From JAGLHV01 sp023132075 [NCBI: bacterium] (GTDB taxonomy: Bacteria > CBDUZB01 > JAGLHV01), in contig JAGLYT010000002.1 in NCBI GenBank assembly GCA_023132075.1, forward strand, positions 1-29,456: a stretch of 29,456 nucleotides of DNA. Reading direction: 5' to 3'. The notes under the pieces are model-generated. The model did no database searches and was not told the DNA's origin. It saw nothing but the letters and a program-made list of their open reading frames with translations. Positions 5,650-24,862 of the stretch are shown here, piece by piece (position 1 is the first letter of the stretch; the number at the start of each line of letters is the position of its first letter). Both the position numbers and the translations under genes were made by a program.

Positions 5650-6222
5650 TTAACTGGCAGTAGCGGTAATAGTAACCGTAATATACTGCTGTGCTGTTAC
5701 ATCCGTAGCTGTAGGTGCTTCAAAACGGAAATTCAAGTCTCTGGTAGCACTGGTGGCAACACTATATCCTTTTAAACCCACTCCTTCGAGATCTATGGCG
5801 AATTTAGTCGCAGAAGCAGTTTGAACGCCGGTAGTTAGTGCATCTGTGGGTCCATCGTAGCTGCCTGCTGCGTTAGCTGTTGTCGAAAACATAGCTGACA
5901 TTCTGAACTGATGAGCTGCCGGTGCTGCAGTTACCGGTGTCCAGGCAGTTCCGCCTCCGGTCAAACTATAAGCAATACTTAGATCATAGTCTTCGGTTAC
6001 ATTTCCATCGTTAGTAACGGTAATGGTTTGCGCGAGTGGTTCAGAACTTCCACTGGTAGCTAATGCTCCGAAAGGATAGCTCGAACTACTTAGAGATACG
6101 CTTAAATCCTGAATCAATACTGTACAATAAATGTTTTCGTTTAAACCGGCATAAACAGTACCGCCGGCGATACTCAACAAAAACACTATTCCGATGATGC
6201 TTAGAAATTTTGACGTTTTCAT
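5650..6222 (-). CDS. Small secreted beta-domain surface protein under riboswitch control
   Basis: 190 residues from ATG 6222 behind a GGGGG ribosome-binding site. Residues 1-25 are a signal peptide ending VYA, giving a mature 165-residue protein starting GLNENIYCTV. The mature part is Ser/Thr/Ala-rich and beta-like (SSSYPFG, ITVTNDGNV, HQFRMSAMF, GLKGYSV, RDLNFRFEAPT, QQYITVTITA). It is clearly homologous to the last 150 residues of the beta-helix protein at 818-3412, so this is the same domain as a stand-alone protein. The N-terminal IYCTV motif is shared with the FN3 protein. Expression is predicted to depend on the c-di-GMP-I riboswitch at 6491-6571. Function is unknown; a repeating surface-layer, fibre or matrix subunit is an inference from its size, secretion and regulation. 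Confidence 0.88.
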   Translation of the reverse strand: MKTSKFLSIIGIVFLLSIAGGTVYAGLNENIYCTVLIQDLSVSLSSSSYPFGALATSGSSEPLAQTITVTNDGNVTEDYDLSIAYSLTGGGTAWTPVTAAPAAHQFRMSAMFSTTANAAGSYDGPTDALTTGVQTASATKFAIDLEGVGLKGYSVATSATRDLNFRFEAPTATDVTAQQYITVTITATAS

Positions 6223-6490: not shown

Positions 6491-6571
6491 TTGGGTAACC
6501 CAGCCTCCCTTGATTAAGTCCGGGACTGTAGCTTTGTGTCTCCGCCTCACGACGAATTTACCTTTTTCCAA
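6491..6571 (-). promoter_or_regulatory. c-di-GMP-I (GEMM-I) riboswitch aptamer upstream of the 190-aa gene
   Basis: Read on the minus strand: P1 TTGG pairs with CCAA at the end, then AAAAAGGTAAA, a short stem capped by a GUGA (GNRA) tetraloop, GACACAAAGCT, a second helical arm, and TGGGTTACC. These are the GEMM-I landmarks in order. Compared with the usual GGCAAA...GACGCAAAGCC, the C22-G45 pair is replaced by U22-A45, a compensatory change that supports true structure. The ligand-contacting G20 and A47 equivalents are kept, which favours c-di-GMP over cGAMP. A good promoter lies just upstream and a terminator-like hairpin downstream. Confidence 0.85.
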
Positions 6572-6602
6572 TGTAAAGATAATGTAACTATTATCTACCA
6601 TA

Positions 6603-13530: not shown

Positions 13531-15567
13531 TTATTTTAATTGCTCAAGTTTTTTTATTTTAGTCTTTGCTCTTTTTAAATATTTTAATGCTTTTTCATGA
13601 TGAGTTTGAATAAGTAATGCTTTTTCCCACATATTTACCGCTTCTTTTAAATCGTTTTCCCGGTAGTAAAAAATTCCTTGAGCCAGATATGCTTCCATGC
13701 AAATCTCTTTGATTTTATGGTTTTCGGGAATAATTATTAAAGCTTTTTCCCATAAAGTAATGGCTTCTAAATATTTTCCCGCATTATATTCGTTAACTCC
13801 TTGCTGGTAAAGTTTATTAGTTTTTTCGATAAATTCTTTTCTGGTTTGTCCAATAGCGATTTTAGCTTCGGTATGAGAAGGGATAATTTCAAGCAGTTTA
13901 GTCCACAGGATAACTGCCTGGTTAAATTCCCCTTTTTGATAAAGCAACCTGCCGTCTTGAAAAAGTTTATTGCCCAACTCTTTGAATAAGCGGGAGGCTT
14001 CTTTTTGTCCCGGATCTAAATTTAATGCCTGTTTCCATTTTTTTATTGCAGCAGAATAATTTTTCTTATGATAAAAATTTTGACCTTCTTTTATGTATTT
14101 TTGGATAATATCTTTTTTTACCGCTATTTTTTCTTCTTTTAATTTAACTAGTGCTTTTTGAATATTTTCTTCTACCAGAGGATAGTTGGGATAAACTTTT
14201 GAAATTTTTTCCCATTCCCTGATTGCCTGGGAATATTTTCCCAGTTGATAGGATTTTGTTCCCAGCTGGAGAGATTTCTCTAATTTTTGCCTCATCGTTT
14301 TAATAAAGGTTTTAGCCTGTATTTCTGCCGGGTTTATAATTAAAATATTCTGCCATACTTTTTCGGCTTTTCTCCATAAGTTTTTTTTGTAGAAAGAAGA
14401 AGCTTTGTCGTAAAGTGTTTTTGTCTCTATGGTGATTCTGGTCTTGATGGTTGTAACATATTTATGAGCTAATTCGTGATGGGGATCAACAGAGAAAATG
14501 TTGTTAAAGGTGCTAAGTGCTTCCGATAATCTTTTTTTCTGGTATAAATCTATTCCCTTCCGCAAATGAGTAGTAAAGAATTTTTTCTCTTTTTTACTGA
14601 ATATACGTTGGATTTTTACTTCCTGGCCAAATCTCATAGTAAAAGATAGTTGATGTGAACCGTATGTTTCTTCGATTCCGCTAATAGGGTAAGCGAAAGC
14701 ATAGTCTACTTGAAACATAGGGGAAACCCAACTCATTCCGCAGGTTAAATTTCTATATGACTGGTCACCAATACCAAAACCTCCTCTTACGCCCAGTAAT
14801 TTCTGAAGGAACCATTTTTCTCCTCCGCCATAGAATTTTAGGTTATTGTCTCTGTAATATACATCCAAGCCTGCATTGAAACTTTTCTGTTTATAAACAG
14901 AGCCCAGTTTAAAGCCCGCAGGGATTTCATCTTTTTCTTTAAGCCCCAAATCAGGTTGATTGATATCAGTTAAGATGAGGCCAAAAGAAAAAAAATCGTT
15001 TAAATTGTACAGGCCGCTAATATCCAGACTGTAATTATAAACAAAGGTTCCTTTGCTGAAAAGAGGATCTATTCTGGTATAATCGTCTTTCCCGAACTTT
15101 TTTGCCAAATATTTGAAGTTTATTCCTCCGGCAAAATAGTTTTTGTACAATTTTTTACCATAAGAAAGGATAATGGTATCTTCCTGATAAAAATCAGCCA
15201 GGATAAAATTTAACCACCCTATGCCAATTGTTCCCCATGATGAACGTTCATCGGTTTCCTTATTGCCGAATTCTAAAGGGTGAGCATAGAGACAGAGACT
15301 ATTGATTAAGTTGCTGTCATCGTCTAATCCCCAATGAATTTTTCCGCAACTGGTAGTGAGTTCTTTTCTATTTAATTGTGATAGTCCGGCAGGGTTATAA
15401 TAAAGGCTGTAAACATCGTCACAAACCGCAACAAAATTTTTTCCCCGGCCAATACAACGGGCTCCCGCTCCCATTTCTTCGAAATGAGCACAGAGATGTG
15501 AATTACAAAACAAACAAATAATGGCGATAATAAGAGTTGAATAATAATTAATTTCTATTTTTGTCAT
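13531..15567 (-). CDS. Outer-membrane beta-barrel (PorV/UPF0164-like) protein with C-terminal TPR array
   Basis: 678 residues from ATG 15567, overlapping the upstream regulator stop by 4 bases (ATGA). Signal peptide 1-27. The next stretch (EEMGAGARCIGRGKNFVAVCDDVYSLYYNPAGLSQL, here split across two strands of the barrel) is the hallmark of PorV/UPF0164/FadL-like barrels. Alternating beta-strands continue to ~340 (GTIGIGWLNF, YKNYFAGGINFKYLAKKF, FKLGSVYKQKSFNAGLDVYY). Residues ~350-678 contain about seven TPR units (EALSTFNNIFSVDP, AIREWEKISKVYP, AIKKWKQALNLDP, AVILWTKLLEIIP, AITLWEKALIIIP, AVNMWEKALLIQ). The TPRs closely resemble those of the TadD-like protein at 25269-26528. Probable outer-membrane scaffold for export or surface attachment. 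Confidence 0.88.
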   Translation of the reverse strand: MTKIEINYYSTLIIAIICLFCNSHLCAHFEEMGAGARCIGRGKNFVAVCDDVYSLYYNPAGLSQLNRKELTTSCGKIHWGLDDDSNLINSLCLYAHPLEFGNKETDERSSWGTIGIGWLNFILADFYQEDTIILSYGKKLYKNYFAGGINFKYLAKKFGKDDYTRIDPLFSKGTFVYNYSLDISGLYNLNDFFSFGLILTDINQPDLGLKEKDEIPAGFKLGSVYKQKSFNAGLDVYYRDNNLKFYGGGEKWFLQKLLGVRGGFGIGDQSYRNLTCGMSWVSPMFQVDYAFAYPISGIEETYGSHQLSFTMRFGQEVKIQRIFSKKEKKFFTTHLRKGIDLYQKKRLSEALSTFNNIFSVDPHHELAHKYVTTIKTRITIETKTLYDKASSFYKKNLWRKAEKVWQNILIINPAEIQAKTFIKTMRQKLEKSLQLGTKSYQLGKYSQAIREWEKISKVYPNYPLVEENIQKALVKLKEEKIAVKKDIIQKYIKEGQNFYHKKNYSAAIKKWKQALNLDPGQKEASRLFKELGNKLFQDGRLLYQKGEFNQAVILWTKLLEIIPSHTEAKIAIGQTRKEFIEKTNKLYQQGVNEYNAGKYLEAITLWEKALIIIPENHKIKEICMEAYLAQGIFYYRENDLKEAVNMWEKALLIQTHHEKALKYLKRAKTKIKKLEQLK

Positions 15568-15893
15568 TTTTCTTTTCTTTCCTTAAAAATTTGGACAGGC
15601 TCTTTTTTTATAGTATGGATTTTCGCTGTATTTTCGTCAAAGAGTTTTTTATTTAAAGAATTTTTAATTTCTACTAAGGAACGGCGTCTTTCAGAAGAGG
15701 GTTTGATCAGATGAATTATTTTTAAACTTGCTTGTCCATTATATAATCGATAACCGGAGGTGGTTTTTGCTGTTACTTTAAGTAAACCGATGTCTGTGTA
15801 ATATCTAATAGTGGAAACCGGTAGACCGGCTGTTTTTGCCAATTCTCCAATGGTTGAAAGTCCCAATTTTAAACGATCCTTTTTACTAAACAA
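15564..15893 (-). CDS. MerR-family transcriptional regulator, short form
   Basis: 109 residues from TTG 15893, chosen because GGGAGG lies eight bases upstream. Residues ~12-80 form a MerR winged-helix domain: LSTIGELAKTAGLPVSTIRYYTDIGLL is the recognition helix region (split here by position), followed by GYRLYNGQASLKIIHLIK and a short tail. It lacks a long dimerisation coil and the C-terminal ligand-binding domain of classic metal or drug sensors; the length fits small MerR-like regulators. First gene of the operon, overlapping the beta-barrel gene by 4 bases. A 28-bp dyad at 15913-15940 directly upstream is the likely autoregulatory operator. Confidence 0.88.
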   Translation of the reverse strand: MFSKKDRLKLGLSTIGELAKTAGLPVSTIRYYTDIGLLKVTAKTTSGYRLYNGQASLKIIHLIKPSSERRRSLVEIKNSLNKKLFDENTAKIHTIKKEPVQIFKERKEK

Positions 15894-16003: not shown

Positions 16004-16321
16004 GATACCCCCTGGTAAATAAACAACATATTATGTATAAGAAAAAGAATGGTGTGAGATAGAAAAGATTTTATGGCAAAGCAATTGTATTTTAACTTAG
16101 GACGCATAAACATAAGCACTTATAAGTATAAAGAAAATAAAACACCCTGGCAATTGGCCTGTGAAAAGGTAAAAAACATTGATATCAGTGACTTTCCTCT
16201 GCTTCCAGTGGCTTTGCCACCAGGCGAGCGTGCCCAGGCGGGTAAGGGTTGCTATGATTTCACCAGTTGCCTTAAATGCTTTGCTTAAAGAAAGAACTAA
16301 ACAAATTTATTAGGGGGTGTC
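16004..16321. mobile_element. Decayed insertion element with imperfect terminal inverted repeats
   Basis: GATACCCCCTGGTAAATAAA at 16004-16023 is matched in inverted orientation by 16302-16321, whose complement reads GACACCCCCTAATAAATTTG (about 14 of 20 positions, including the CCCCCT core). Between them is a short frame resembling the end of a transposase. At ~320 bp this is an internally deleted copy. Confidence 0.5.
16073..16288 (+). pseudogene. Probable transposase/integrase C-terminal remnant
   Basis: A 71-codon frame starting MAKQLYFNLGRINIS. Its middle, NKTPWQLACEKV, is the pattern seen near the end of integrase-core transposases (K-T-P-W-x-L), followed by DISDFPLLPV. The rest of the protein is unrelated-looking. 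It lies wholly within the inverted-repeat pair, has no good ribosome-binding site and lacks the catalytic core, so it is treated as a remnant. A GTGGC/GCCAC hairpin lies inside it. Confidence 0.4.
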
Positions 16322-16360
16322 ACATGTCTTGACTAATCCCTTTATTCACAACTTTTATTC

Positions 16361-16388
16361 TTGACAAATGGAAATCTTGTGTTATACT
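16361..16388 (+). promoter_or_regulatory. Sigma-70-type promoter for the plus-strand riboswitch
   Basis: TTGACA (16361-16366), 16-base spacer, TATACT (16383-16388). The predicted start near 16395 precedes the aptamer by about 35 bases. Confidence 0.75.
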
Positions 16389-16430
16389 TATAGTGTTGGA
16401 TGATGGGTGTTGCAGGGGGCTTAGAATAGT

Positions 16431-16524
16431 CTTCGAAAAAGGCAAATCTATCTTAGAGATAGAGACGCAAAGCCACGAGGTCCATTACGTTATTATGCGG
16501 TATTGGATAGCCGGGCTACCGAAG
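16431..16524 (+). promoter_or_regulatory. c-di-GMP-I (GEMM-I) riboswitch aptamer upstream of the Tad pilin array
   Basis: Landmarks in order: P1 arm CTTCG, AAAAAGGCAAA, a 6-bp stem TCTATC/GATAGA with loop TTAGA, GACGCAAAGCC (exact consensus), a second arm (16471-16510), GGGCTACC and the P1 partner CGAAG. G20, C22-G45 and A47 equivalents of the known c-di-GMP-I fold are all present; G20 argues for c-di-GMP rather than cGAMP. The first hairpin loop is not the usual GNRA tetraloop. A promoter lies upstream and a terminator overlaps the 3' edge. Confidence 0.92.
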
Positions 16525-16551
16525 GGATGTCACGATTGTTCGGGTTTTTTT
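16519..16551 (+). terminator. Riboswitch terminator sharing bases with aptamer helix P1
   Basis: CCGAA (16519-16523) pairs with TTCGG (16539-16543), followed by G and seven T. The left arm is the same sequence that closes the aptamer (CGAAG, 16520-16524), so ligand-stabilised P1 and terminator are mutually exclusive. This predicts transcription on when c-di-GMP is bound. Confidence 0.7.
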
Positions 16552-16571
16552 GAGCAGAGGGGCGGGGATGG

Positions 16572-16618
16572 AAAACCGGTTCCTAAGTGATTACTCAAAA
16601 GGTGGTGCCGGTTTTTTT
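16572..16618 (+). terminator. Second intrinsic terminator after the riboswitch
   Basis: AAAACCGG (16572-16579) pairs with CCGG and the following T-run (16608-16615), with an inner CCT/AGG helix; seven T in all (16612-16618). It follows the first terminator by 20 bases. The ACCGG/CCGGT core matches the terminator-like hairpin of the minus-strand riboswitch. Confidence 0.7.
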
Positions 16619-16623
16619 ATGAC

Positions 16624-16652
16624 TTGACAGAAAGGGAAAAGAAGAGTATAAT
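16624..16652 (+). promoter_or_regulatory. Perfect-consensus promoter of the pilin array
   Basis: TTGACA (16624-16629), 17-base spacer, TATAAT (16647-16652): an exact sigma-70 consensus, starting five bases after the second terminator. It gives the Tad genes a strong start independent of the riboswitch. Confidence 0.8.
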
Positions 16653-16717
16653 CAATAGAAGTATATAAATTAGGTTAGGGGAAAAAGGTTGATTGTAAAA
16701 AATTCAGGAGAATAAAG

Positions 16718-16897
16718 ATGAAAAGGCGAGGAAGCAGGAAAAATAAAAAAGGGCAGGCGTAGTTGGAATATCTGGTGATTGTTGGTGTGGTATCTTTAGG
16801 GATGCTGTCTGTAGGTGTTAAGGTGAAAAGTTCTTTGGATGATTATTTTGACAAAATTTCTCAAAAGATGATAGATTGTGGTTGTGAGACAGATTAA
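16718..16897 (+). pseudogene. Flp-type pilin gene interrupted by an amber codon in the processing motif
   Basis: ATG 16718 behind AGGAG. The frame reads MKRRGSRKNKKGQA, then TAG (16760-16762), then LEYLVIVGVVSLGMLSV and continues to TAA at 16895. Without the TAG this is a normal 59-residue Flp prepilin: basic leader, G|Q cleavage site, glutamate at +5, EYL, hydrophobic helix, then a short polar tail ending CGCETD. The stop replaces the residue that is Leu in two sister pilins (GQSLVEY), so one T-to-A change (TTG to TAG) explains it. TAG ends several other genes here (pilin 4, the TPR protein, the phosphatase), so it is a real stop in this genome. Confidence 0.8.
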
Positions 16898-16915
16898 AGA
16901 GAAAGAAGATGCTAA

Positions 16916-17068
16916 ATGAAAAAAGCAAAAATGAAAGGACAGAGTTTGGTAGAGTACTTAGTTCTAATAGGAGTAGTGGTATTGGGTTCCATAGCGGGGC
17001 TAAGTTATTTTAAAAATCAGATAACAGATAGTTTTAATGCTATAATAAATGGGATGACCGAGAAATAA
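16916..17068 (+). CDS. Flp-type pilin (copy 2)
   Basis: 50 residues. Leader MKKAKMKG, predicted cleavage G|Q, then QSLVEYLVLIGVVVLG with Glu at +5 followed by Tyr, the Flp-family hallmark, a hydrophobic helix to ~residue 30 and a short tail SYFKNQITDSFNAI. It starts 18 bases after the amber-interrupted copy. It is a close paralogue of copy 6: 84 bases (16937-17020 versus 17867-17950) are highly similar and both encode GLSYFKNQ. Would be cut by a TadV/CpaA-type peptidase (not in window) and assembled into the Tad pilus. Too short for most gene finders. Confidence 0.85.
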   Translation: MKKAKMKGQSLVEYLVLIGVVVLGSIAGLSYFKNQITDSFNAIINGMTEK

Positions 17069-17117
17069 AAAAATAAGGAAGAAATAGTTTAAAATGAAAA
17101 AAGGGGGTGATCTTATA

Positions 17118-17270
17118 ATGAAGTTAAACAAAAAGGGACAGAATGTAATAGAGTATATCCTGATCATTGCAGTATTAGCCGCAGGAATAATAATTGCGGG
17201 AGGTGCATTAAAAAGTTATCTAACAAGTAAAGGGAGTCCGGCGCAATATGAAGGATCGACAGGAGAGTAA
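17118..17270 (+). CDS. Flp-type pilin (copy 3)
   Basis: 50 residues from ATG 17118, preferred over an in-frame ATG at 17094 because AAGGGGG lies directly upstream. Leader MKLNKKG, cleavage G|Q, QNVIEYILIIAVLAAG with Glu at +5 and Tyr next, a hydrophobic helix, and a distinct polar tail (SKGSPAQYEGSTGE). Together with copy 4 it forms a second subgroup (GQN-x-IEYILII). Confidence 0.83.
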   Translation: MKLNKKGQNVIEYILIIAVLAAGIIIAGGALKSYLTSKGSPAQYEGSTGE

Positions 17271-17310
17271 GGCAGGTATCCATAAAAATAAAAGGAAGGT
17301 GTTTTAAAAC

Positions 17311-17478
17311 TTGAATAAAAAAGGGCAAAATATGATAGAATATATATTGATCATTTCAGTAATTGCCGGTGCGGTGGTTGTTGCCGTAGGGAAGATAAAG
17401 GACTATATGAAAGAAAGGGCATCGGTTACTATACATGCTAATGAAGAAGGTTACTGGGGTAGCTGGAAAAAAAGGTAG
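17311..17478 (+). CDS. Flp-type pilin (copy 4), TTG start
   Basis: 55 residues. TTG at 17311 follows AAGGAAGGTG by about ten bases and gives the very short leader (M)NKKG, cleavage G|Q, then QNMIEYILIISVIAGAVVVAVG with the Glu+5/Tyr pair. The tail is longer and unusual (ASVTIHANEEGYWGSWKKR), aromatic and basic at the end. Stop is TAG. It may be a minor or tip subunit; that is inference from the divergent tail. Confidence 0.78.
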   Translation: MNKKGQNMIEYILIISVIAGAVVVAVGKIKDYMKERASVTIHANEEGYWGSWKKR

Positions 17479-17588
17479 GTTAGTTGGATTAAGTATATAA
17501 AGGGATGGAATATAATGTTTTGTTTGGGTGTTTTCGGCAGGGTTGGTTTGTAAAGAGCAAAAAATAAAAGATGAAGGGGGGGGTAGAA

Positions 17589-17768
17589 ATGTTTAAGATG
17601 TTAAGAAAGAGTAAAAAAGGGCAGTCAGCAATAGAATATGCGGTTATTTTAGGGGTAATGGCTGCTGCCGCTATTGTCATTATCAATATTATGAGAGCTG
17701 GTATAGAGAAAGGGTATACCGGTATTGCTAATAGTATTGGCAGTTTTGCAGGAGAAGAGGAGGAGTGA
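17589..17768 (+). CDS. Flp-type pilin (copy 5)
   Basis: 59 residues from ATG 17589, directly after a run of eight G that serves as ribosome-binding site. An in-frame ATG six codons earlier lacks one. Leader MFKMLRKSKKG, cleavage G|Q, then QSAIEYAVILGVMAAAAIVIINIM with Glu+5/Tyr, a longer helix and an acidic end (FAGEEEE). The alanine-rich helix sets it apart from the other copies. The 110 bases before it contain no clear gene. Confidence 0.85.
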   Translation: MFKMLRKSKKGQSAIEYAVILGVMAAAAIVIINIMRAGIEKGYTGIANSIGSFAGEEEE

Positions 17769-17842
17769 GAAGAGAAGATCGTTTGCTTACTATTATTAGA
17801 CAAATATTAAATAAATATTAAACAAAAGGGAAGGTGATCGAT

Positions 17843-18019
17843 ATGTGTAAACGCAGAAAAAACAGAGGACAGAGTTTGGTAGAGTACTTGGTTTTAATAG
17901 CAGTAGTGGTCTTGGGTGCTATTGCCGGACTGAGTTATTTTAAAAATCAGGTTTCTGATGGGTATAATAGTGCAGGAGATTCAATAAAAACTGAGATAAC
18001 AGGCACGATATTTAATTAA
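17843..18019 (+). CDS. Flp-type pilin (copy 6)
   Basis: 58 residues from ATG 17843 (AAGGTG upstream; a GTG three codons earlier overlaps that site). Leader MCKRRKNRG, cleavage G|Q, then QSLVEYLVLIAVVVLGAIAGLSYFKNQVSD (shown here as two adjoining parts of the helix and tail), ending ITGTIFN. Nearly identical in its first half to copy 2, so one is a recent duplicate of the other. The next 137 bases hold only a small hairpin (AGTTGT/ACAACT, 18111-18129). Confidence 0.85.
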   Translation: MCKRRKNRGQSLVEYLVLIAVVVLGAIAGLSYFKNQVSDGYNSAGDSIKTEITGTIFN

Positions 18020-18156
18020 TAACAACAATCAGAGCGGTGGGAATAGTGAAAAAAAATAGAATTGCGGTAGTGAAGAAGTAAACAGGGGGATTGAAAAATA
18101 TCTGATGATCAGTTGTGGAGCAGACAACTTAAAGAGCAATGGACTGGTGGTCGTGA

Positions 18157-18561
18157 TTGAGTAAAAAAGGGATGTCTGATTTTAAAAAAGTTTTGTTGTG
18201 GATATGTGTAATTGTTTTAATCAGGGAGGTGTTTATTTACACGGGTGTAGGGCAAATACTGGATGGGGAAGGGAAAGAATTTGTAAATTTTGCTACAGAG
18301 AAATTGAAAGGGATATTTAATTTTTCTACCCATGTTTCTAAGATAGATGTTCCCAGGATAGAAAAACCGGAAGTACCCCCGATAGATATTGTTCCCGTAG
18401 AGAGAGTGGATGTTTCTCAAATAGATATTTCTCATGACCAAAATCCGCAAATTCCAAGAGTAGATATTCCTAAGATAGAAAAGACTCGGGTTCCCAAAGT
18501 GAATATTCCTAAGCAGGAAAGGATCCGGGTTCCTAAAGTGAATATCCCCAAAATAAGGTAA
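18157..18561 (+). CDS. Membrane-anchored protein with 13-residue proline-rich repeats, in the Tad locus
   Basis: 134 residues from TTG 18157 (ATG 18172 is the alternative). The start SKKGMSDFKK followed by a single hydrophobic helix (~11-32) imitates a prepilin but lacks Gln and Glu+5. Residues 33-60 are amphipathic. Residues 61-134 consist of five full and one partial 13-residue repeat, consensus P-x-(I/V)-(D/N)-(I/V)-P-x-x-E-(K/R)-x-x-(V/I), with proline and alternating hydrophobic residues and no glycine. I do not recognise a family. The position between pilins and TadE suggests a pilus-associated or envelope-spanning part, the repeat perhaps forming an extended rod. Codon use is like its neighbours. 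Confidence 0.75.
   Translation: MSKKGMSDFKKVLLWICVIVLIREVFIYTGVGQILDGEGKEFVNFATEKLKGIFNFSTHVSKIDVPRIEKPEVPPIDIVPVERVDVSQIDISHDQNPQIPRVDIPKIEKTRVPKVNIPKQERIRVPKVNIPKIR
18337..18558 (+). repeat. 39-bp (13-codon) degenerate coding tandem repeat
   Basis: Units encode SKIDVPRIEKPEV, PPIDIVPVERVDV, SQIDISHDQNPQI, PRVDIPKIEKTRV, PKVNIPKQERIRV and PKVNIPKIR. The register is constant with no insertions. The last three units are the most alike, indicating growth at the 3' end. Confidence 0.8.
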
Positions 18562-18615
18562 AGTAATCATTTATTAGTGAAAAAATGAGAGTAAAATGGA
18601 AAAGAGGTGGATAGT

Positions 18616-19005
18616 ATGTGGAGAAAAATGAAAGAAAAAAAAGGCCAAAGTGTGATTGAATTTTTATTGGTTTCTCCTTTACTAATTTATTCTCTGTTTT
18701 TACTGTTAGTTGTTTGGGATGTCTGTAATTGTATTATTATTGCCAATCATGCTGCTTATTATTTTTGTCGGACTTTTGTAGTAGAAGAAAGTAAGGACAC
18801 AGTAGCTGCGGTAGCGATAGCAACAAATGCAGCAGCAGCGGTAATGCCTTCAGACTGGGATAGAAAGTTTACTTATCATGAAGGACAAGAGGACATAAGC
18901 GTAAGGATTGGGTATAAGTATGATTTTCCCGCTATATTAGATTTTTTTAGCGCCGATGGGAGTTCCTGGCAAGTTCGTGGGTATTGTTTGATGAGGAAGA
19001 TATAG
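18616..19005 (+). CDS. TadE-like pseudopilin
   Basis: 129 residues from ATG 18616 behind AGAGGTGG (a GTG three codons upstream lies in that site). Leader MWRKMKEKKG, cleavage G|Q, QSVIEFLLVSPLLIYSLFLLLVVWDV with Glu+5 and Phe instead of Tyr, as in TadE/TadF pseudopilins, which are longer than Flp. The mature part has a hydrophobic N-terminal helix, an Ala-rich middle and a C-terminal beta-like region with two cysteines. TadE proteins are processed by the same peptidase and are needed for Flp pilus assembly. Only one TadE-like gene is present; TadF and TadG are not seen. Confidence 0.85.
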   Translation: MWRKMKEKKGQSVIEFLLVSPLLIYSLFLLLVVWDVCNCIIIANHAAYYFCRTFVVEESKDTVAAVAIATNAAAAVMPSDWDRKFTYHEGQEDISVRIGYKYDFPAILDFFSADGSSWQVRGYCLMRKI

Positions 19006-19085
19006 AATAGTAATTATTTTTTACGGATAGATGTTTGTTGTTGGTTTTTTTTAAATTTAGACTTAAAAATTGGGTTGATATTTTT

Positions 19086-19111
19086 ACTCACCTTATTTAA
19101 GTAAGGTGAGT
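19086..19111 (+). promoter_or_regulatory. Perfect 10-bp hairpin between pilin genes and the assembly genes
   Basis: ACTCACCTTA, loop TTTAAG, TAAGGTGAGT. No T-run follows on the plus strand, so it is not a standard terminator. It stands in the 154-base gap between TadE and CpaB. It may be a processing or stabilising element that sets the ratio of pilin to assembly-machine mRNA. Confidence 0.55.
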
Positions 19112-19159
19112 ATTGCAATTATAATAAAAAACTAAGGTAATAGTTAAGGAGGAAAGTCA

Positions 19160-19939
19160 ATGGGTGGAAAAGCAGGGTTGATAATTGCTGCAATTGCAGG
19201 GATGTTGGCGGTAATGTTTAATGGGTTGTATTTGGCTAAGAAAGAAAAAGAATTGGAGCGAGGGTTAATTAAAAGCCGGGTGGTAGTTGCGGTGCGAGAC
19301 ATTCCTAAAAGAAGTGTAATTAAAACTAATGTATTAGGTTTTATGGAAATACCACAAAAGTATATTCAACCCAAGGCAATTCGTGATCCGAAAGCAGCGG
19401 AAGGGTTGGTTAATTTAGTTCCTATTTCCCGGGGGATGCAAGTATTACAATCCAGTTTGGTTCCATTAAGTAAAGGAACAGGTATATCGGTTAAAGTCCC
19501 AGCGGAAATGCGTGGAATTGTAACAAAAGCAGATACTAATCTGCTATCTTTAATTAATCCGGGAGATCACTTAGATATTTTGCTTACTTTGCCTGACCTT
19601 AATTATCCGGGGGATTGTGTTATTACCCGATTGCAAAATGTTATTGTTTTAAGTATAGGAGAAGATTTTGGTTCTGGAGGGGAAAAGGGAAATTTCTTAA
19701 CGTTTGCTTTAACCCCGAAACAATGTCAGCTGTTTACTCTGGCTAGGGGGCAAGGAAAAATCACTTACATTGTGCGTTCTTATAATGATGGTAAAATAAA
19801 TAATTTAACAAAGACTTCACAACCTGCTCTTTATGAAAGACAGAAAGCACCTATAACACCTAAAGTTGTAAGTGATGAGAAACATATTGGACAGGAGGAA
19901 AAGAAAGAGGCTGTAAGTGCAGGAAAGGAGGGAAAGTGA
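19160..19939 (+). CDS. cpaB: Tad pilus assembly protein CpaB/RcpC
   Basis: 259 residues, ATG preceded by AAGGAGG. N-terminal membrane anchor (~6-25), then a SAF domain (VVVAVRDIPKRSVIKTNVL, MEIPQKYIQPKAI) and the RcpC/CpaB region (ISVKVPAEMRGIV, INPGDHLDILLTL, VIVLSIGED, LTFALTPKQCQLFTLARGQGKI, here quoted as fragments). The charged, Lys/Glu-rich tail (~225-259) is probably disordered. CpaB sits in the periplasm, contacts the secretin and is thought to bind peptidoglycan or glycans through the SAF fold. It overlaps the secretin gene by 3-4 bases and provides its ribosome-binding site. Confidence 0.9.
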   Translation: MGGKAGLIIAAIAGMLAVMFNGLYLAKKEKELERGLIKSRVVVAVRDIPKRSVIKTNVLGFMEIPQKYIQPKAIRDPKAAEGLVNLVPISRGMQVLQSSLVPLSKGTGISVKVPAEMRGIVTKADTNLLSLINPGDHLDILLTLPDLNYPGDCVITRLQNVIVLSIGEDFGSGGEKGNFLTFALTPKQCQLFTLARGQGKITYIVRSYNDGKINNLTKTSQPALYERQKAPITPKVVSDEKHIGQEEKKEAVSAGKEGK

Positions 19940-20751
19940 AAAAGAGAATAATTGTAGTAGCTGGGAAATTTTTTTTAGGGGTTGTTCTCCTGCAGGGATA
20001 TGGGTTATTTGGAAAAGCAACTTTTGTTTATGGTCAGAGAAAAATGGTAGAAATAAGTGTTGATGCAATAGAAATAACGGAAACAAATCTTAAGAAATTA
20101 GGAATAGAATGGGTGGATGCTTTTAGTTTTGAAGAAGGGAGTATCCCTTCGATTTTAGGAGACAACACTCTTTCGGCAATAGGAGAGAGCGGTCTTCCAA
20201 TAATGCCTTATGATCTTTATAAAGTAGGGACGGTTTTTAGAACGACTCCTTTTACGAGTTCCCTCCATGCTTTAATTAATAATAACGAAGCCCGACTTTT
20301 AGCTAATCCTAAATTGGTTACTGAAAGTGGTTCAAAAGCTCATTTTTTAGTCGGAGGGGAGATCCCTTATGTCTATTATACGCAAGATGAGGTTATTATT
20401 GAATGGAAAGAGTACGGAGTATCTTTAAATGTTGAACCTGTTGTGGTTGATAATAGGAATATTTCAGCTAAGTTGAATCTGGGAGTTGTGGAATTGGGAG
20501 ATTGGTATTACTATGGAGCGTATCGCCTTCCTTCTTTTACCAAACGGGAAATGACTAATAAGGTAATGGTAAAAGACAAACAGACATTGGTTATTGCCGG
20601 GTTAAAAAAAGATTCAAAGGTAAGCAACAAAAGGAGAGTTCCTTTATTAGGATATATCCCCCTCATTGGGGATGCTTTTTTTACGTATGAAGATTCTATA
20701 AATATGAAAACATCGTTAGTTATGTTTGTAACTTTTAAGATAGTGAAATAA
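19936..20751 (+). CDS. cpaC: Short secretin of the Tad pilus (CpaC/RcpA-like)
   Basis: 271 residues starting at GTG 19936, which overlaps the CpaB stop (GTGA). Signal peptide ~1-33. Only the secretin core is present: an early strand (MVEISVDAIEITETNLKKLGI), LLANPKLVTESGSKAHFLVGGEIPY (quoted in part), and the end motif VPLLGYIPLIGDAFF that marks the family. CpaC/RcpA homologues are normally 450-600 residues with an N-terminal BON/N0-N1 region, which is missing here. The protein is intact and in its usual place between CpaB and the ATPases, so it is likely functional as a minimal outer-membrane channel; another protein may supply the periplasmic ring. Confidence 0.88.
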   Translation: MKKRIIVVAGKFFLGVVLLQGYGLFGKATFVYGQRKMVEISVDAIEITETNLKKLGIEWVDAFSFEEGSIPSILGDNTLSAIGESGLPIMPYDLYKVGTVFRTTPFTSSLHALINNNEARLLANPKLVTESGSKAHFLVGGEIPYVYYTQDEVIIEWKEYGVSLNVEPVVVDNRNISAKLNLGVVELGDWYYYGAYRLPSFTKREMTNKVMVKDKQTLVIAGLKKDSKVSNKRRVPLLGYIPLIGDAFFTYEDSINMKTSLVMFVTFKIVK

Positions 20752-20772
20752 TTAAAGGAAATAAATAAAAAA

Positions 20773-22965
20773 ATGGAAAATAGTAATAGGATAATTATTT
20801 TTACCGGTCCGCAAAAAGGAATGGGGAAAACAGTAATAGCTGTTAATTTAGCAATTGATTGGGCCATGAGGGCTAAAAAACAGGTAGTGATTGTTGATTT
20901 GGACTTCCTTTGTAAGGGAGAAATAGCACAAACATTAGATATTTCCGCCTCGTATATTTCAGAAATGTCGATAGTAATGCAGAGAGATACTTTGGACGGG
21001 GAATTCTTGAGAGGTAGGATAAGTTTTAATAAATGGGGAGTAGGCGTTTTAGCTTTAGCTCCGGACGAAAAAACAGCAGCAGAGGTTTCTTTAGGGCAAA
21101 TAGCCAGGACTTTAATTGGATTAAGTAAAATTTATTCGCTGGTAATAGATATGGATATTGATATTACGCGAAGAGGAATGTTAATATTTGATTTTGCGGA
21201 TGTAATTTTTTGGGCTTTTCTTCCTTCCAATGTTTTTCTCAAACAAACTATGGATAAAATGAAGCTTCTTGCTTCTTATAAGTTTAGTTTCAGCAAGTTT
21301 CATTTTATTTTAAACCAATCTAACATAAAGGGAGCGATGAGAAGTGCAGAGATTGATAATGCTTTAGGTAGTTTCGGAAAGAAAATTGAAGAGTTTATTC
21401 CGCAAGACAAATTAGTTCTCCAGTCAGGTAATAAGAAAAGACCTTTGGTTTTAAGTGAACCACATAGTGTTTTTTCAGAAAGCATTAGAAGAATAAGAGG
21501 AATGATGCTTAATATCCCGCCACGGGGCAGGAAAATAGAAGAAGTAAATGTTTTAGACGGGTTACTGGATAAATTTGAATTAGTGATTAAAAGAGAAAAA
21601 AAAGAAGGAAAAGAGTTTGTTATTGCTGATTTATCATCTGAGGAGCTTTTAATAAGGGAAAAAGAAGAAAAGAAACATACTGCATTAAAACAGAAGATAC
21701 ATCAACAGTTGATTAAACGGTTGGATGTAAGAAAGATAGATTTGATTTCAAGTGCTAAAAATCAACAAGTGAAGACAATTGTTGAAAAAACTGCTACTTT
21801 TATTTTAAGTACGGAAATAGATGTTGATACTATGTCCAGGCAAGAAAGAGAAGAAATAATTGCGGAGATAGTAGATGAAGCATTAGGTTTAGGCCCGTTG
21901 GAGGCTTTAATGTCAGAACCTTCTATTACTGAAATTATGGTGAATAAATCTGACCAAATTTATGTTGAACAAAATGGCAAGCTGCAGCTTACTGACCGGA
22001 AATTCATCAATAATGATCAGGTTGTTCAAGTGATTAGAAAGATAGTTGCTCCTTTAGGCCGGAGAATAGATGAAAGTATGCCTTTTGTAGATGCCCGGCT
22101 TAAAGATGGTTCTAGAATAAATGCGATTATTCCCCCTTTGGCTTTACAGGGGCCGATGCTCACTATTAGACGCTTTCCTCAGGAACCTTTGACCGGAGAA
22201 GATTTAATAGATATAGGTTCTTTTACCAAAGAAATGCTTCAATTTTTATCTGCATGTATTAAGATGAGAAAGAATGTGATTATTTCCGGAGGTACGGGAA
22301 CCGGTAAAACTACTCTGTTGAATGTTTTATCAGCTGCTATTCCCGAAAAAGAAAGAATTATTACGATAGAAGATACTGCTGAATTAAAGCTAAAACAAGA
22401 ACATGTAGGGCGGTTAGAATCACGGCCGCCTAATGTCGAAGGGAAAGGAGAAGTTACCATACGTGACTTAGTAAGAAATACTTTGCGTATGCGTCCGGAC
22501 CGTATTATTGTAGGAGAATGTCGGGGGGCTGAAGCATTAGATATGTTGCAGGCAATGAATACGGGGCATGAAGGTTCTATGTCGACTATACATGCGAATA
22601 CTCCCCGGGATATGCTGAGCAGATTAGAGACGATGATACTTATGGCCGGAACGGAATTACCTTTACGGGCAATTCGGGAACAAATTGCTTCTGCTATACA
22701 TATAGTAGTCCAACTATCTCGTTTTTCGGATGGAACAAGGAAAGTAATTAAAATAACCGAAGTAACCGGTCGAGAAAAAGACGTTATAACAGTGCATGAT
22801 ATTTTTGTTTTTCACCGGGCAGGGATAGAAGATAAAAAAATAACGGGATCTTTTCAAGCTACGGGAAATATTCCTCGATGTTATTCTGAGTTTAAATCAC
22901 AAGGAATTGATTTGTCTGTGGAAATATTTAGGATCAAAAAAAATGAAAAAGCTTTAAATCTGTGA
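20773..22965 (+). CDS. TadZ/CpaE-TadA/CpaF fusion: pilus localisation ATPase joined to assembly ATPase
   Basis: 730 residues, AAAGGA upstream of ATG. Residues ~1-265 are a MinD/ParA-like domain as in TadZ/CpaE: P-loop GPQKGMGKT (12-20), then VVIVDLDFLCKGE and LVIDMDID. The loop departs from the usual KGGxGKT. After a charged linker (~265-310), residues ~310-730 are a full CpaF/TadA secretion ATPase: Walker A GGTGTGKTT (~505-513), Asp box IEDTAELKL, Walker B region RPDRIIVGECRGAEALDM, His box STIHANTPRDMLSRLE, and the closing RFSDGTRKVIKITEV. TadA powers Flp pilus assembly; TadZ places the machine in the cell. These are normally two adjacent genes, so here they are fixed one-to-one on a hexamer. 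Confidence 0.93.
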   Translation: MENSNRIIIFTGPQKGMGKTVIAVNLAIDWAMRAKKQVVIVDLDFLCKGEIAQTLDISASYISEMSIVMQRDTLDGEFLRGRISFNKWGVGVLALAPDEKTAAEVSLGQIARTLIGLSKIYSLVIDMDIDITRRGMLIFDFADVIFWAFLPSNVFLKQTMDKMKLLASYKFSFSKFHFILNQSNIKGAMRSAEIDNALGSFGKKIEEFIPQDKLVLQSGNKKRPLVLSEPHSVFSESIRRIRGMMLNIPPRGRKIEEVNVLDGLLDKFELVIKREKKEGKEFVIADLSSEELLIREKEEKKHTALKQKIHQQLIKRLDVRKIDLISSAKNQQVKTIVEKTATFILSTEIDVDTMSRQEREEIIAEIVDEALGLGPLEALMSEPSITEIMVNKSDQIYVEQNGKLQLTDRKFINNDQVVQVIRKIVAPLGRRIDESMPFVDARLKDGSRINAIIPPLALQGPMLTIRRFPQEPLTGEDLIDIGSFTKEMLQFLSACIKMRKNVIISGGTGTGKTTLLNVLSAAIPEKERIITIEDTAELKLKQEHVGRLESRPPNVEGKGEVTIRDLVRNTLRMRPDRIIVGECRGAEALDMLQAMNTGHEGSMSTIHANTPRDMLSRLETMILMAGTELPLRAIREQIASAIHIVVQLSRFSDGTRKVIKITEVTGREKDVITVHDIFVFHRAGIEDKKITGSFQATGNIPRCYSEFKSQGIDLSVEIFRIKKNEKALNL

Positions 22966-23002
22966 AAAAGAGTACAATAAAATTTTAAGGAGTTTTAATA
23001 AT

Positions 23003-23866
23003 ATGGTTTTACTTAAAATGATACCAATGTTTTTATTTACTTTTGGTTTGTGGTTAATATTAACATTTATTTATCAGACAGTAACCCTATTTTATTTTCG
23101 GTATAAAGGGTATTATGAACGAATGGTAACTAAAACTACTTCTGAGCTGGGAGGGATGTTTATTAAAGTTAAAGAGAAACAAATGGGACTTTTTTTAATT
23201 TTAGGGATGCTAATGATCGGAGTATTCGTTTATTTTATGACAAAGAATATAGTGCTGGCTGTTTTTGCAGTAGCTGGGAGTGTGGTTTTACCTCGATTGT
23301 TCGTGAAGTTTGCCAAGGCAAAGCATTCTAAAAAATTTGATGAACAATTAGTAGAGGCCTTAATATTGCTTTCTAATTCGCTAAAAGCAGGTCTTGATTT
23401 AACTCAGGGAATGCAATTAATTGTTCGGGATATGCCCGCTCCTATTTCTGATGAATTTAAATTAGTACTGCAAGAAACGAATATCGGTTCGCCGTTAGAA
23501 GCTAGTTTAGAAAATTTAGCGAATCGCATTAATAGTGAATTGGTAAGGTTTATTGTAACAGCAATAGTTATTCAGCGGGAATCAGGGGGAGATATCACGA
23601 AAATTTTGGATCAGGTTGTTCGTTCCATTAGAGATAATCATTCGTTAATGAGGAAAGTCCAGGTTTTAACTGCACAGGGAATATTGGAATCTGGAGTATC
23701 TTTTGTTCTTCCCTGGGGGTTGGCCGTGGCTTTATCTATAATGAAACCGGGATTTCTGAATCCTTTATTTCATCATCCCATAGGTGTAATTATATTGTTA
23801 GCGGCTACGGGATGGCAAATAATAGGTGTTTTTATTGTTTTTAAGATGTCCAAAATAAAGGTTTAA
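23003..23866 (+). CDS. tadB: Tad pilus inner-membrane platform protein TadB
   Basis: 287 residues, ATG preceded by AAGGAG. Hydrophobic segments at ~8-30, ~65-100, ~230-250 and ~265-282. The cytoplasmic part contains the T2SSF/GspF signature region (LVEALILLSNSLKAGLDLTQGMQ, quoted in part; then RESGGDITKILDQVV). Shares with TadC the job of anchoring the ATPase and extracting pilins from the membrane. Order ATPase-TadB-TadC is the standard Tad order, 37 bases after the fusion ATPase. Confidence 0.9.
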   Translation: MVLLKMIPMFLFTFGLWLILTFIYQTVTLFYFRYKGYYERMVTKTTSELGGMFIKVKEKQMGLFLILGMLMIGVFVYFMTKNIVLAVFAVAGSVVLPRLFVKFAKAKHSKKFDEQLVEALILLSNSLKAGLDLTQGMQLIVRDMPAPISDEFKLVLQETNIGSPLEASLENLANRINSELVRFIVTAIVIQRESGGDITKILDQVVRSIRDNHSLMRKVQVLTAQGILESGVSFVLPWGLAVALSIMKPGFLNPLFHHPIGVIILLAATGWQIIGVFIVFKMSKIKV

Positions 23867-23959
23867 GATTTTTAATATGGATAAACATAACTTTATGGAT
23901 TAGTAAGTGAGTGTGCGGATTTTAATGAATAGAAATTGAATAATCGGGAAGGGGCAAAA

Positions 23960-24862
23960 ATGCCAATACTAAGTACGGTTTTATTTTTTATTGTTGTTTT
24001 TCAAGTAGTTTACTTTTTGTATTTAATGCGGGAAAAGAGGAATGCGATGGAGAGTTATATAATACAGGATTTGTATTCATTTGAAGAAGAAACAGTAACA
24101 AAAAAAGAGAAAGGTGCGTTTAATATTATTAAGAGGGTTTTGAAAAAATTTAATAAAAAATTTTTTGAACAGGGAAAAATAAAAAGAAGGATAGAAAAAC
24201 AATTGATAAAGTTAGGCGGCCAATCGCATCTTCGGCCCGGAGATATTTTAGTATTTAAAGAAATTGCAGTGGTTGGGGGTTGTATTGCAGCTTTTCTTTT
24301 GTATAAAAAAGGCATAACTAATCCGTTGATTTTAATTGGTGCTGTGATATTAAGTTTTTTTGTTCCGGATTATTTCCTTTCAAAAAAGATAAAAGACAGA
24401 GAGACCGATATTCGTATTTCTCTGCCCGGAGTGGTAGATCTTTTAACTTTATGTGTGGAGGCAGGAATGGATTTTATGTCAGCTTTTGAAAAAATAATTA
24501 CGAAACAAAAAGGCGCGAAGAAAGATCCTTTTGTTGAAGAGATTAATGTGATGTTAGGTGAAATAAGAATAGGTTTAACTAGAAGAGATGCCTTGAAAAA
24601 TATGGCTAAGAGGATAGAAATTCCGGAAATTAGTGCTTTTATTTCCGTGCTTCTTCAAACTGAGGAATTAGGAACTGATTTGGTAAATATTATGCGGGAT
24701 TATGCAGTTGAAATTAGAATAAAGCGTTTACAAATGGCTGAAAAAAGGGCAGCACAAATTGGAACGAAAATGATATTTCCAATGATACTTTTTATTTTTC
24801 CGATGACTTTTGTAATAATTTTGGTTCCTTTGATTTTAAATTATTTTATGGGGAAAACTTGA
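23960..24862 (+). CDS. tadC: Tad pilus inner-membrane platform protein TadC
   Basis: 300 residues from ATG 23960, chosen over a TTG at 23936 because GGGAAGGGG lies directly upstream. N-terminal membrane segment (~4-22), a pair at ~93-135, and a last one at ~272-295. T2SSF landmarks: LPGVVDLLTLCVEAGMDFMSA (in part), FVEEINVMLGEIRIG and LQTEELGTDLV. Ends overlapping the DUF192 gene by 4 bases (TTGA). Confidence 0.9.
   Translation: MPILSTVLFFIVVFQVVYFLYLMREKRNAMESYIIQDLYSFEEETVTKKEKGAFNIIKRVLKKFNKKFFEQGKIKRRIEKQLIKLGGQSHLRPGDILVFKEIAVVGGCIAAFLLYKKGITNPLILIGAVILSFFVPDYFLSKKIKDRETDIRISLPGVVDLLTLCVEAGMDFMSAFEKIITKQKGAKKDPFVEEINVMLGEIRIGLTRRDALKNMAKRIEIPEISAFISVLLQTEELGTDLVNIMRDYAVEIRIKRLQMAEKRAAQIGTKMIFPMILFIFPMTFVIILVPLILNYFMGKT

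Follow-up and report, generated by a model that had tools for sequence, protein, structure and literature searches.

What determines the expression of a pilus operon whose first gene is preceded by a riboswitch aptamer, two candidate terminators, and two candidate promoters in close succession? This question is raised by a locus in the window analyzed here, that is, the whole stretch of 29,456 nt, which is contig C112 of a draft genome that is 86.7% complete. All elements of the locus lie on the + strand. The first Tad/Flp-type pilin gene (16718..16897) has an AGGAG motif at 16706-16710, and the Tad pilus operon continues from 16916 to 24862 with more small pilins, RcpC/CpaB (19160-19939), a secretin (19936-20751), a MinD-CpaF-like ATPase (20773-22965), and two T2SSF proteins (23003-23866 and 23936-24862); the small pilins were named by eye via a KGQ..EY motif. 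In this assembly the first pilin gene contains an in-frame TAG at codon 15 (16760-16762), and the frame is uninterrupted in the congener G002. The TAG may be a real mutation or an assembly error.

The leader starts with promoter P1 (16361..16388, +), TTGACA-16-TATACT, which matches the consensus at 11 of 12 positions and is predicted to drive the riboswitch leader from a start at about 16395. It is followed by a c-di-GMP-I riboswitch aptamer (16431..16523, +; RF01051, 55.3 bits, gathering score 35, E 2e-8). The sister family RF03167 (c-di-GMP-I-GGC) scored 52.2 bits on this aptamer, under its cut-off of 59, yet with a better E-value. In the closing (P1) stem of the aptamer, CUUCG (16431-16435) pairs with CGAAG (16520-16524), and the closing arm is thus located where the initial annotation had placed it. 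Beyond the c-di-GMP-I clan, a permissive Rfam search of 16100-17100 returned just one snoRNA match with an E-value of 2.6.

The phylum is represented in the searchable set by three genomes only, all of one genus: the genome of the window (G000), G001, and G002. Altogether, 43 c-di-GMP-I matches were found in the three genomes (12, 12, and 19, respectively), of which 42 were over the cut-off. Two positions that we take to be the ligand-contacting G20 and C92 of Vc2, namely the G ahead of CAAA and the initial C of ACCG, did not vary among the 37 aptamers that were aligned, that of the window included (the alignment took 37 of the 43; L033, L008, L048 hit 2822, L041, L012, and L039 hit 28281 were left out). 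The aptamer of the window was confirmed as real, beyond chance, and judging from its sequence it would bind c-di-GMP. A promoter site with at least 10 of 12 matches was present within 120 bases ahead of 36 of the 43 aptamers, which is a raw count. By eye, many of the aptamers in the three genomes precede pilin-like or signal-bearing proteins. The genus thus appears to have many riboswitch outputs for the c-di-GMP signal in small draft genomes.

An orthologous leader, followed by a Tad operon with a 78% identical TadA, was found in G002 (contig C169). The identities of the two leaders were 26/28 for P1, 20/34 for the leader just after P1 and ahead of the aptamer, 19/20 for the region of the aptamer 3' strand, 6/10 for the loop of the second terminator (T2), 18/18 for its right arm and U7, 32/34 for 16619-16652 (the downstream promoter P2 and the five bases ahead of it), and 46/64 between P2 and the pilin start. 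Conservation follows the elements (P1, the aptamer strand, the T2 arm, and P2) and is patchy elsewhere; for P1, the T2 right arm, and P2 it exceeds chance. The initial annotation had named relatives without both terminators as evidence against its proposal; in the sole relative with an orthologous leader, G002, both T2 and the promoter behind it are retained. A 24-mer from the end of T2 to the −35 box of P2 (16607-16630) occurs once, as an exact match, in G000 and once in G002; it was not found in G001 with up to three mismatches, and no orthologue of the Tad operon was found in G001. The best TadA match of G001 (C371) adjoins proteins that we take to be RodA-, penicillin-binding-, MreD-, MreC-, and MreB-like; as it sits in a cell-shape gene cluster, it was regarded as a paralogue and rejected as a third orthologue. 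A scripted scan of this locus revealed neither pilin motifs nor promoters with at least 11 of 12 matches on the strand of the TadA-like gene. Among the genomes compared there are, therefore, only two orthologues of the Tad leader. They do not differ in the T2 arm or in the aptamer strand, and the leader itself thus offers no covariation.

Which of the two terminators could be the switch? The initial annotation had assigned this role to the first one, T1 (16519..16551, +), a 5-bp hairpin (CCGAA/UUCGG) with U7, and had regarded T2 as a plain block behind it. The T1 left arm CCGAA (16519-16523) does overlap the closing arm of the aptamer, as had been claimed; the right arm TTCGG is at 16539-16543 and the U7 at 16545-16551. 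However, the hairpin is weak (−6.5 kcal/mol) and does not stand out from shuffles: 7.6% of 500 spacer shuffles paired as well, and the arm complementarity was matched by 29.8% of 1000 shuffles. Furthermore, it is absent from G002, where its position is a 30-column gap in the alignment. T1 is present in the minimum-energy fold of 16431-16545, and other pairings win in 16396-16545; its U7 also pairs within the spacer hairpin module that is described below. A consensus terminator scan of the window listed neither T1 nor T2, probably because it allowed only loops of 3–8 bases. Taken together, T1 is not clearly more than chance, and its function as a terminator is doubtful. On account of the alignment gap and the shuffle controls it was rejected as a conserved switch terminator; it is an extra of this species that would at best assist as a stop or pause.

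T2 ends with its right arm GGUGGUGCCGG and U7 (16601..16618, +; arm 16601-16611, U7 16612-16618), and this arm has two possible partners. One is the aptamer 3' strand CCGGGCUACC (16511..16520, +), which is thereby also the predicted upstream arm of T2 (T2-long). The other is a local left arm AAAACCGGUUCC (16572..16583, +), an alternative and ligand-independent partner. A hairpin module, GUCAC...GUGAU (16529..16591, +), sits within T2-long and sequesters the local left arm. In the ligand-free fold, 16511-16520 paired with 16601-16611 at 0.89–1.00 per base, save one bulged G, and at 0.71–0.80 in the congener; the module helix was present at 0.99–1.00 in the window and at 0.77–0.80 in the congener. 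The capacity for this pairing is a direct observation, as are the sequence elements and their conservation in one relative. In the ligand-free minimum-energy folds of both orthologues T2-long encloses the module, which is also the most favorable structure until the T2 right arm has been fully transcribed; its interior has 30 gapped columns in the alignment of the two orthologues. The complementarity between the T2 arm and the aptamer strand is limited, with a shuffle fraction of 0.037, that is, it beats only 96% of the shuffles, and with 8 of 10 pairs without a bulge it is below several switches of the genus that do not pair in this way, which speaks against T2-long as the basis of a switch.

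The other aptamers of the genus provide a wider frame of comparison. A terminator within 130 bases could be scored for 38 of the 43 (five were left out), and in 16 of these 38 the terminator right arm was on the aptamer 3' strand in the ligand-free state, at 0.71–1.00. This ON group comprises 14 other switches and the Tad pair (0.88 in the window and 0.71 in the congener), and the remaining 22 switches scored at most 0.06. Occupancy of the aptamer would remove the upstream arm of such a terminator, and this arrangement is, therefore, the plan of an ON-switch. In the helix of the ON group, changes on both sides were found at three positions (G-C/A-U, U-A/C-G, and A-U/G-C), and five of the ten also had cells that do not pair; several members are orthologous to each other, so that there were fewer compensatory events than sequences. 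The terminators of the 22 non-ON switches scored 0.67–1.00 in both ligand states. Since equilibrium folding alone does not discriminate between ON and OFF, polarity is argued here from which arm pairs. As an OFF signature, we asked whether the local left arm could pair with the aptamer 5' P3 strand (z ≤ −2.9); 13 of the 22 non-ON switches had this signature, and nine lacked it. None of the 13 testable ON-group members reached −2.9 (the lowest value was −2.3; three were too short). For the Tad pair the values were +1.1 (window) and +0.6 (congener), so that the local left arm is not complementary to the aptamer 5' strand and an OFF-switch reading of the Tad leader was not supported. The missing OFF signature does not single out the Tad pair, since the same is true of nine of the 22 non-ON switches. 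Neither does arm complementarity alone place it: the shuffle fractions of the 14 other ON members were at most 0.003, but values of up to 0.05 occurred in 11 of the 22 non-ON switches as well. The distance to the U-tract argues against the ON-type reading, as it is 88 and 58 for the Tad pair, 18–38 for the 14 other ON members, and 50–105 for the 22 non-ON switches. Nevertheless, membership in the ON group together with the missing OFF signature makes T2 the likelier switch arm, and the folding results indicate that T2, and not T1, is probably the switch terminator. The assignment of the initial annotation was thus not supported, because it is the T2 arm that pairs with the aptamer 3' strand, the plan of 14 other switches of the genus. 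The ON polarity that it had predicted for c-di-GMP was retained as a prediction, via the helix of T2 and the aptamer strand instead of the T1 helix. In six leaders (L009, L045, L048, L008, L033, and L041), the aptamer 3' strand seems, by eye, to be present twice, with the second copy feeding the terminator, which is possibly a decoy or strand-exchange design.

Does the ligand open T2? The local core of T2 has −14.1 kcal/mol, and 16 of the 19 bases of the region of the local left arm (16572-16590) are kept in the congener, although the local pairing is no better than in spacer shuffles (0.187 and 0.083). When the aptamer was enforced in the equilibrium fold, T2 still formed via the local left arm, at 0.76 in the window and 0.80 in the congener, the highest values with ligand among the 16 ON-group members, and the module helix dropped to 0.07–0.08 and 0.00, respectively. 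Whether the ligand opens T2 thus hinges on the order of folding, and a clean ON-switch would need kinetic control, because at equilibrium the local left arm rescues T2 even with the aptamer in place. The T2-long fold is favored over the aptamer-formed fold by 7.2 kcal/mol in the window (−59.4 versus −52.2 kcal/mol), but only by 0.5 kcal/mol in the congener (−50.4 versus −49.9 kcal/mol), and the latter value speaks against the ON-type reading. The refolding saddle of the congener was about 14 kcal/mol on the direct path (own conversion); this is an upper bound that enters no conclusion.

Five bases past the U7 of T2 the downstream promoter P2 begins (16624..16652, +), TTGACA-17-TATAAT, with 12 of 12 matches and a predicted start at about 16659; terminator, distance, and promoter are positioned as the initial annotation had described them. 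P2 is the sole perfect site in the window, and 0 of 100 shuffles contained one. A 12/12 promoter within 220 bases past the aptamer was found in two of the 43 leaders, which are this orthologous pair, with 0.02 expected. Sites with at least 10 of 12 matches were close to expectation in the same region (5 of 43 leaders versus 3.58 expected), and thus only the perfect site is informative. The three genomes contain 22 (G000), 24 (G001), and 60 (G002) perfect sites, and 0, 1, and 2 matches to the reversed control pattern, that is, 106 versus 3, although the 60 sites of G002 are partly copies of one repeated sequence. Because of this genome-wide excess over the reversed pattern, a perfect site is very probably a promoter here, and P2 is predicted to be of the sigma-70 type. 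The alternative that the consensus match is incidental and P2 is inactive, so that the operon relies on read-through from P1, is very improbable in view of this excess and of the conservation in the congener, where the 12/12 match and 15 of the 17 spacer positions are retained. The earlier proposal of two transcription inputs to the Tad operon was therefore supported as a prediction, with the P1 leader as one and the conserved P2 as the other.

The reading that we favor, with a little less than even confidence, is that the leader is a c-di-GMP-I transcription-termination riboswitch of the ON type fused to a second promoter. RNA polymerase would begin at P1, at about 16395. In the ligand-free state, the T2 right arm (16601-16611) would capture 16511-16520 and form a terminator that ends in U7, and the module (16529-16591) would fold inside the T2-long loop and span the long spacer. 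Once c-di-GMP is bound, P3/P1 of the aptamer would retain the 3' strand, T2-long could not form, and the module would keep the local left arm covered during the emergence of the right arm, so that a fraction of the polymerases would reach the pilin genes. P2, with its start just past the terminator, would provide ligand-independent transcription of this pilin operon. In this scheme we infer ligand binding, both start sites, termination, and the kinetic step that blocks local T2. A quite possible competitor is that T2 is a constitutive stop, whose right arm would merely change partners, from the aptamer strand in the ligand-free state to the local arm in the ligand-bound state. The P1 transcript would then end at 16618 regardless of c-di-GMP, the pilins would be transcribed from P2 alone, and the riboswitch RNA would be a relic, a short RNA, or a means of interference with P2. 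The strong pairing of T2 in the ligand-bound fold and the conservation of the local left arm agree with this explanation, as does the perfect promoter directly behind T2, which makes read-through unneeded, and T2 of the Bc1 riboswitch of Bacillus thuringiensis is a published precedent (PMC11218506). However, the aptamer, P1, and the arm complementary to the aptamer all stay conserved, which would not be necessary in a relic, and the local pairing is at the level of shuffles. The concern of the initial annotation that T2 would block simple read-through is fair in view of the local arm and Bc1, although T2 may be ligand-controlled itself.

That T1, which overlaps the closing stem of the aptamer, is the ligand-controlled terminator, with T2 as a second gate behind it, is unlikely. 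The overlap of CCGAA/UUCGG with the arm of the P1 stem, a U-tract distance of 21, which is inside the ON-group range, and the formation of T1 in the minimum-energy fold of the shorter segment would fit, and Bc1 has the same weak-strong order (PMC11218506), but the gap in the sole orthologue, the low stability without significance against shuffles, and the competing pairings in the whole-leader fold count against it. A further variant, which we regard as rather improbable, is that the riboswitch acts on P2 by transcriptional interference instead of read-through: polymerases stopped at 16612-16618 would cover P2 at its −35 box (16624), and their dwell or crossing would be altered by c-di-GMP. 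If so, an RNA sensor would tune a DNA promoter that is a few bases away.

How does the favored ON-type leader with its second promoter compare with known systems? In the Bc1 c-di-GMP-I riboswitch, a weak terminator is followed by a strong one; the ligand opens T1 only, and T2 masks T1 (PMC11218506). By analogy, T2 of the Tad leader may stay shut with ligand. Both leaders combine a c-di-GMP-I aptamer with a long expression platform and two successive intrinsic terminators, which are predicted here, with T1 doubtful. The genes downstream of Bc1 (mcpE, instead of Tad pilins) are described as unresponsive to c-di-GMP, and a reporter assay gave no indication of another promoter in the 5' UTR; in contrast, the Tad leader has the consensus promoter P2 behind T2, and its T2 arm can pair with the aptamer strand (PMC11218506). 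The initial annotation had called the logic not standard. It is indeed unusual, although Bc1 provides a precedent for the terminator half (PMC11218506). For the promoter half, the tandem of an adenine riboswitch and a tyrosine T-box, with a promoter in between, is a parallel: a second promoter behind the first riboswitch yields one transcript that skips it, although the ligands are others and a second RNA sensor follows the inner promoter (PMC9481103). A literature search on titles and the openings of abstracts, with subscription papers mostly outside its scope, found no description of a promoter directly behind the terminator of a c-di-GMP riboswitch. Within the genus, the 14 other ON-group switches share with the Tad pair the use of the aptamer 3' strand as the upstream arm of a U-tract terminator, but their U-tracts are closer (18–38 versus 88/58), and no promoter with at least 11 of 12 matches lies within 220 bases past their aptamers. 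All parts of the Tad leader are known; the stacking, with a perfect promoter immediately behind the terminator of a c-di-GMP-I leader, is unusual.

To look beyond the genus, a covariance model built from 37 of the 43 aptamers was run on the best 80 Tad loci of other groups, with best-segment identities of 37–60% and none named as this lineage (near records may be omitted). Strong scores for c-di-GMP-I aptamers were obtained in five of these 80 loci (L089, L082, L076, L115, and L113), all from Bacillota/Firmicutes; two further loci, with E-values of 0.06 and 0.1, were not counted. The leaders of these five loci are unrelated to that of the window, and c-di-GMP-I control of Tad genes is thus not unique to the genus. 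In Neobacillus muris (L082) and Fredinandcohnia onubensis (L076), the aptamer is, by eye, directly ahead of a Flp-type pilin, as it is here; by eye only, no perfect promoter was seen between aptamer and pilin in these two. In C. difficile, class I c-di-GMP switches are OFF-switches and class II are ON-switches, with one exception, and class II includes the type IV pilus operon, as is reported (PMC11477304).

Apparently, one aptamer family is wired in two ways in this genus, ON via the 3' strand, and OFF-type via a local arm that competes for the 5' strand. In the case of the Tad operon, a conserved consensus promoter right behind the terminator adds to the sensor, a caution that a gene behind a riboswitch may be controlled mainly by other means. 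The locus offers a testable case in which surface-attachment organelles would be kept at a basal level and the remainder would be adjusted by c-di-GMP. Divergent from the riboswitch leader is a gene for a small MerR-type regulator (109 aa, 15564-15893, − strand), and a similar stretch was seen by eye upstream of the congener leader; a further input of this regulator to P1 or P2 is possible. The window also contains a second c-di-GMP-I aptamer (6491-6572, − strand), ahead of a gene for a 190-aa protein with a signal-like start (5650-6222). This aptamer has the OFF-type plan (z −3.6), and its predicted response is opposite to that of the pilin leader.
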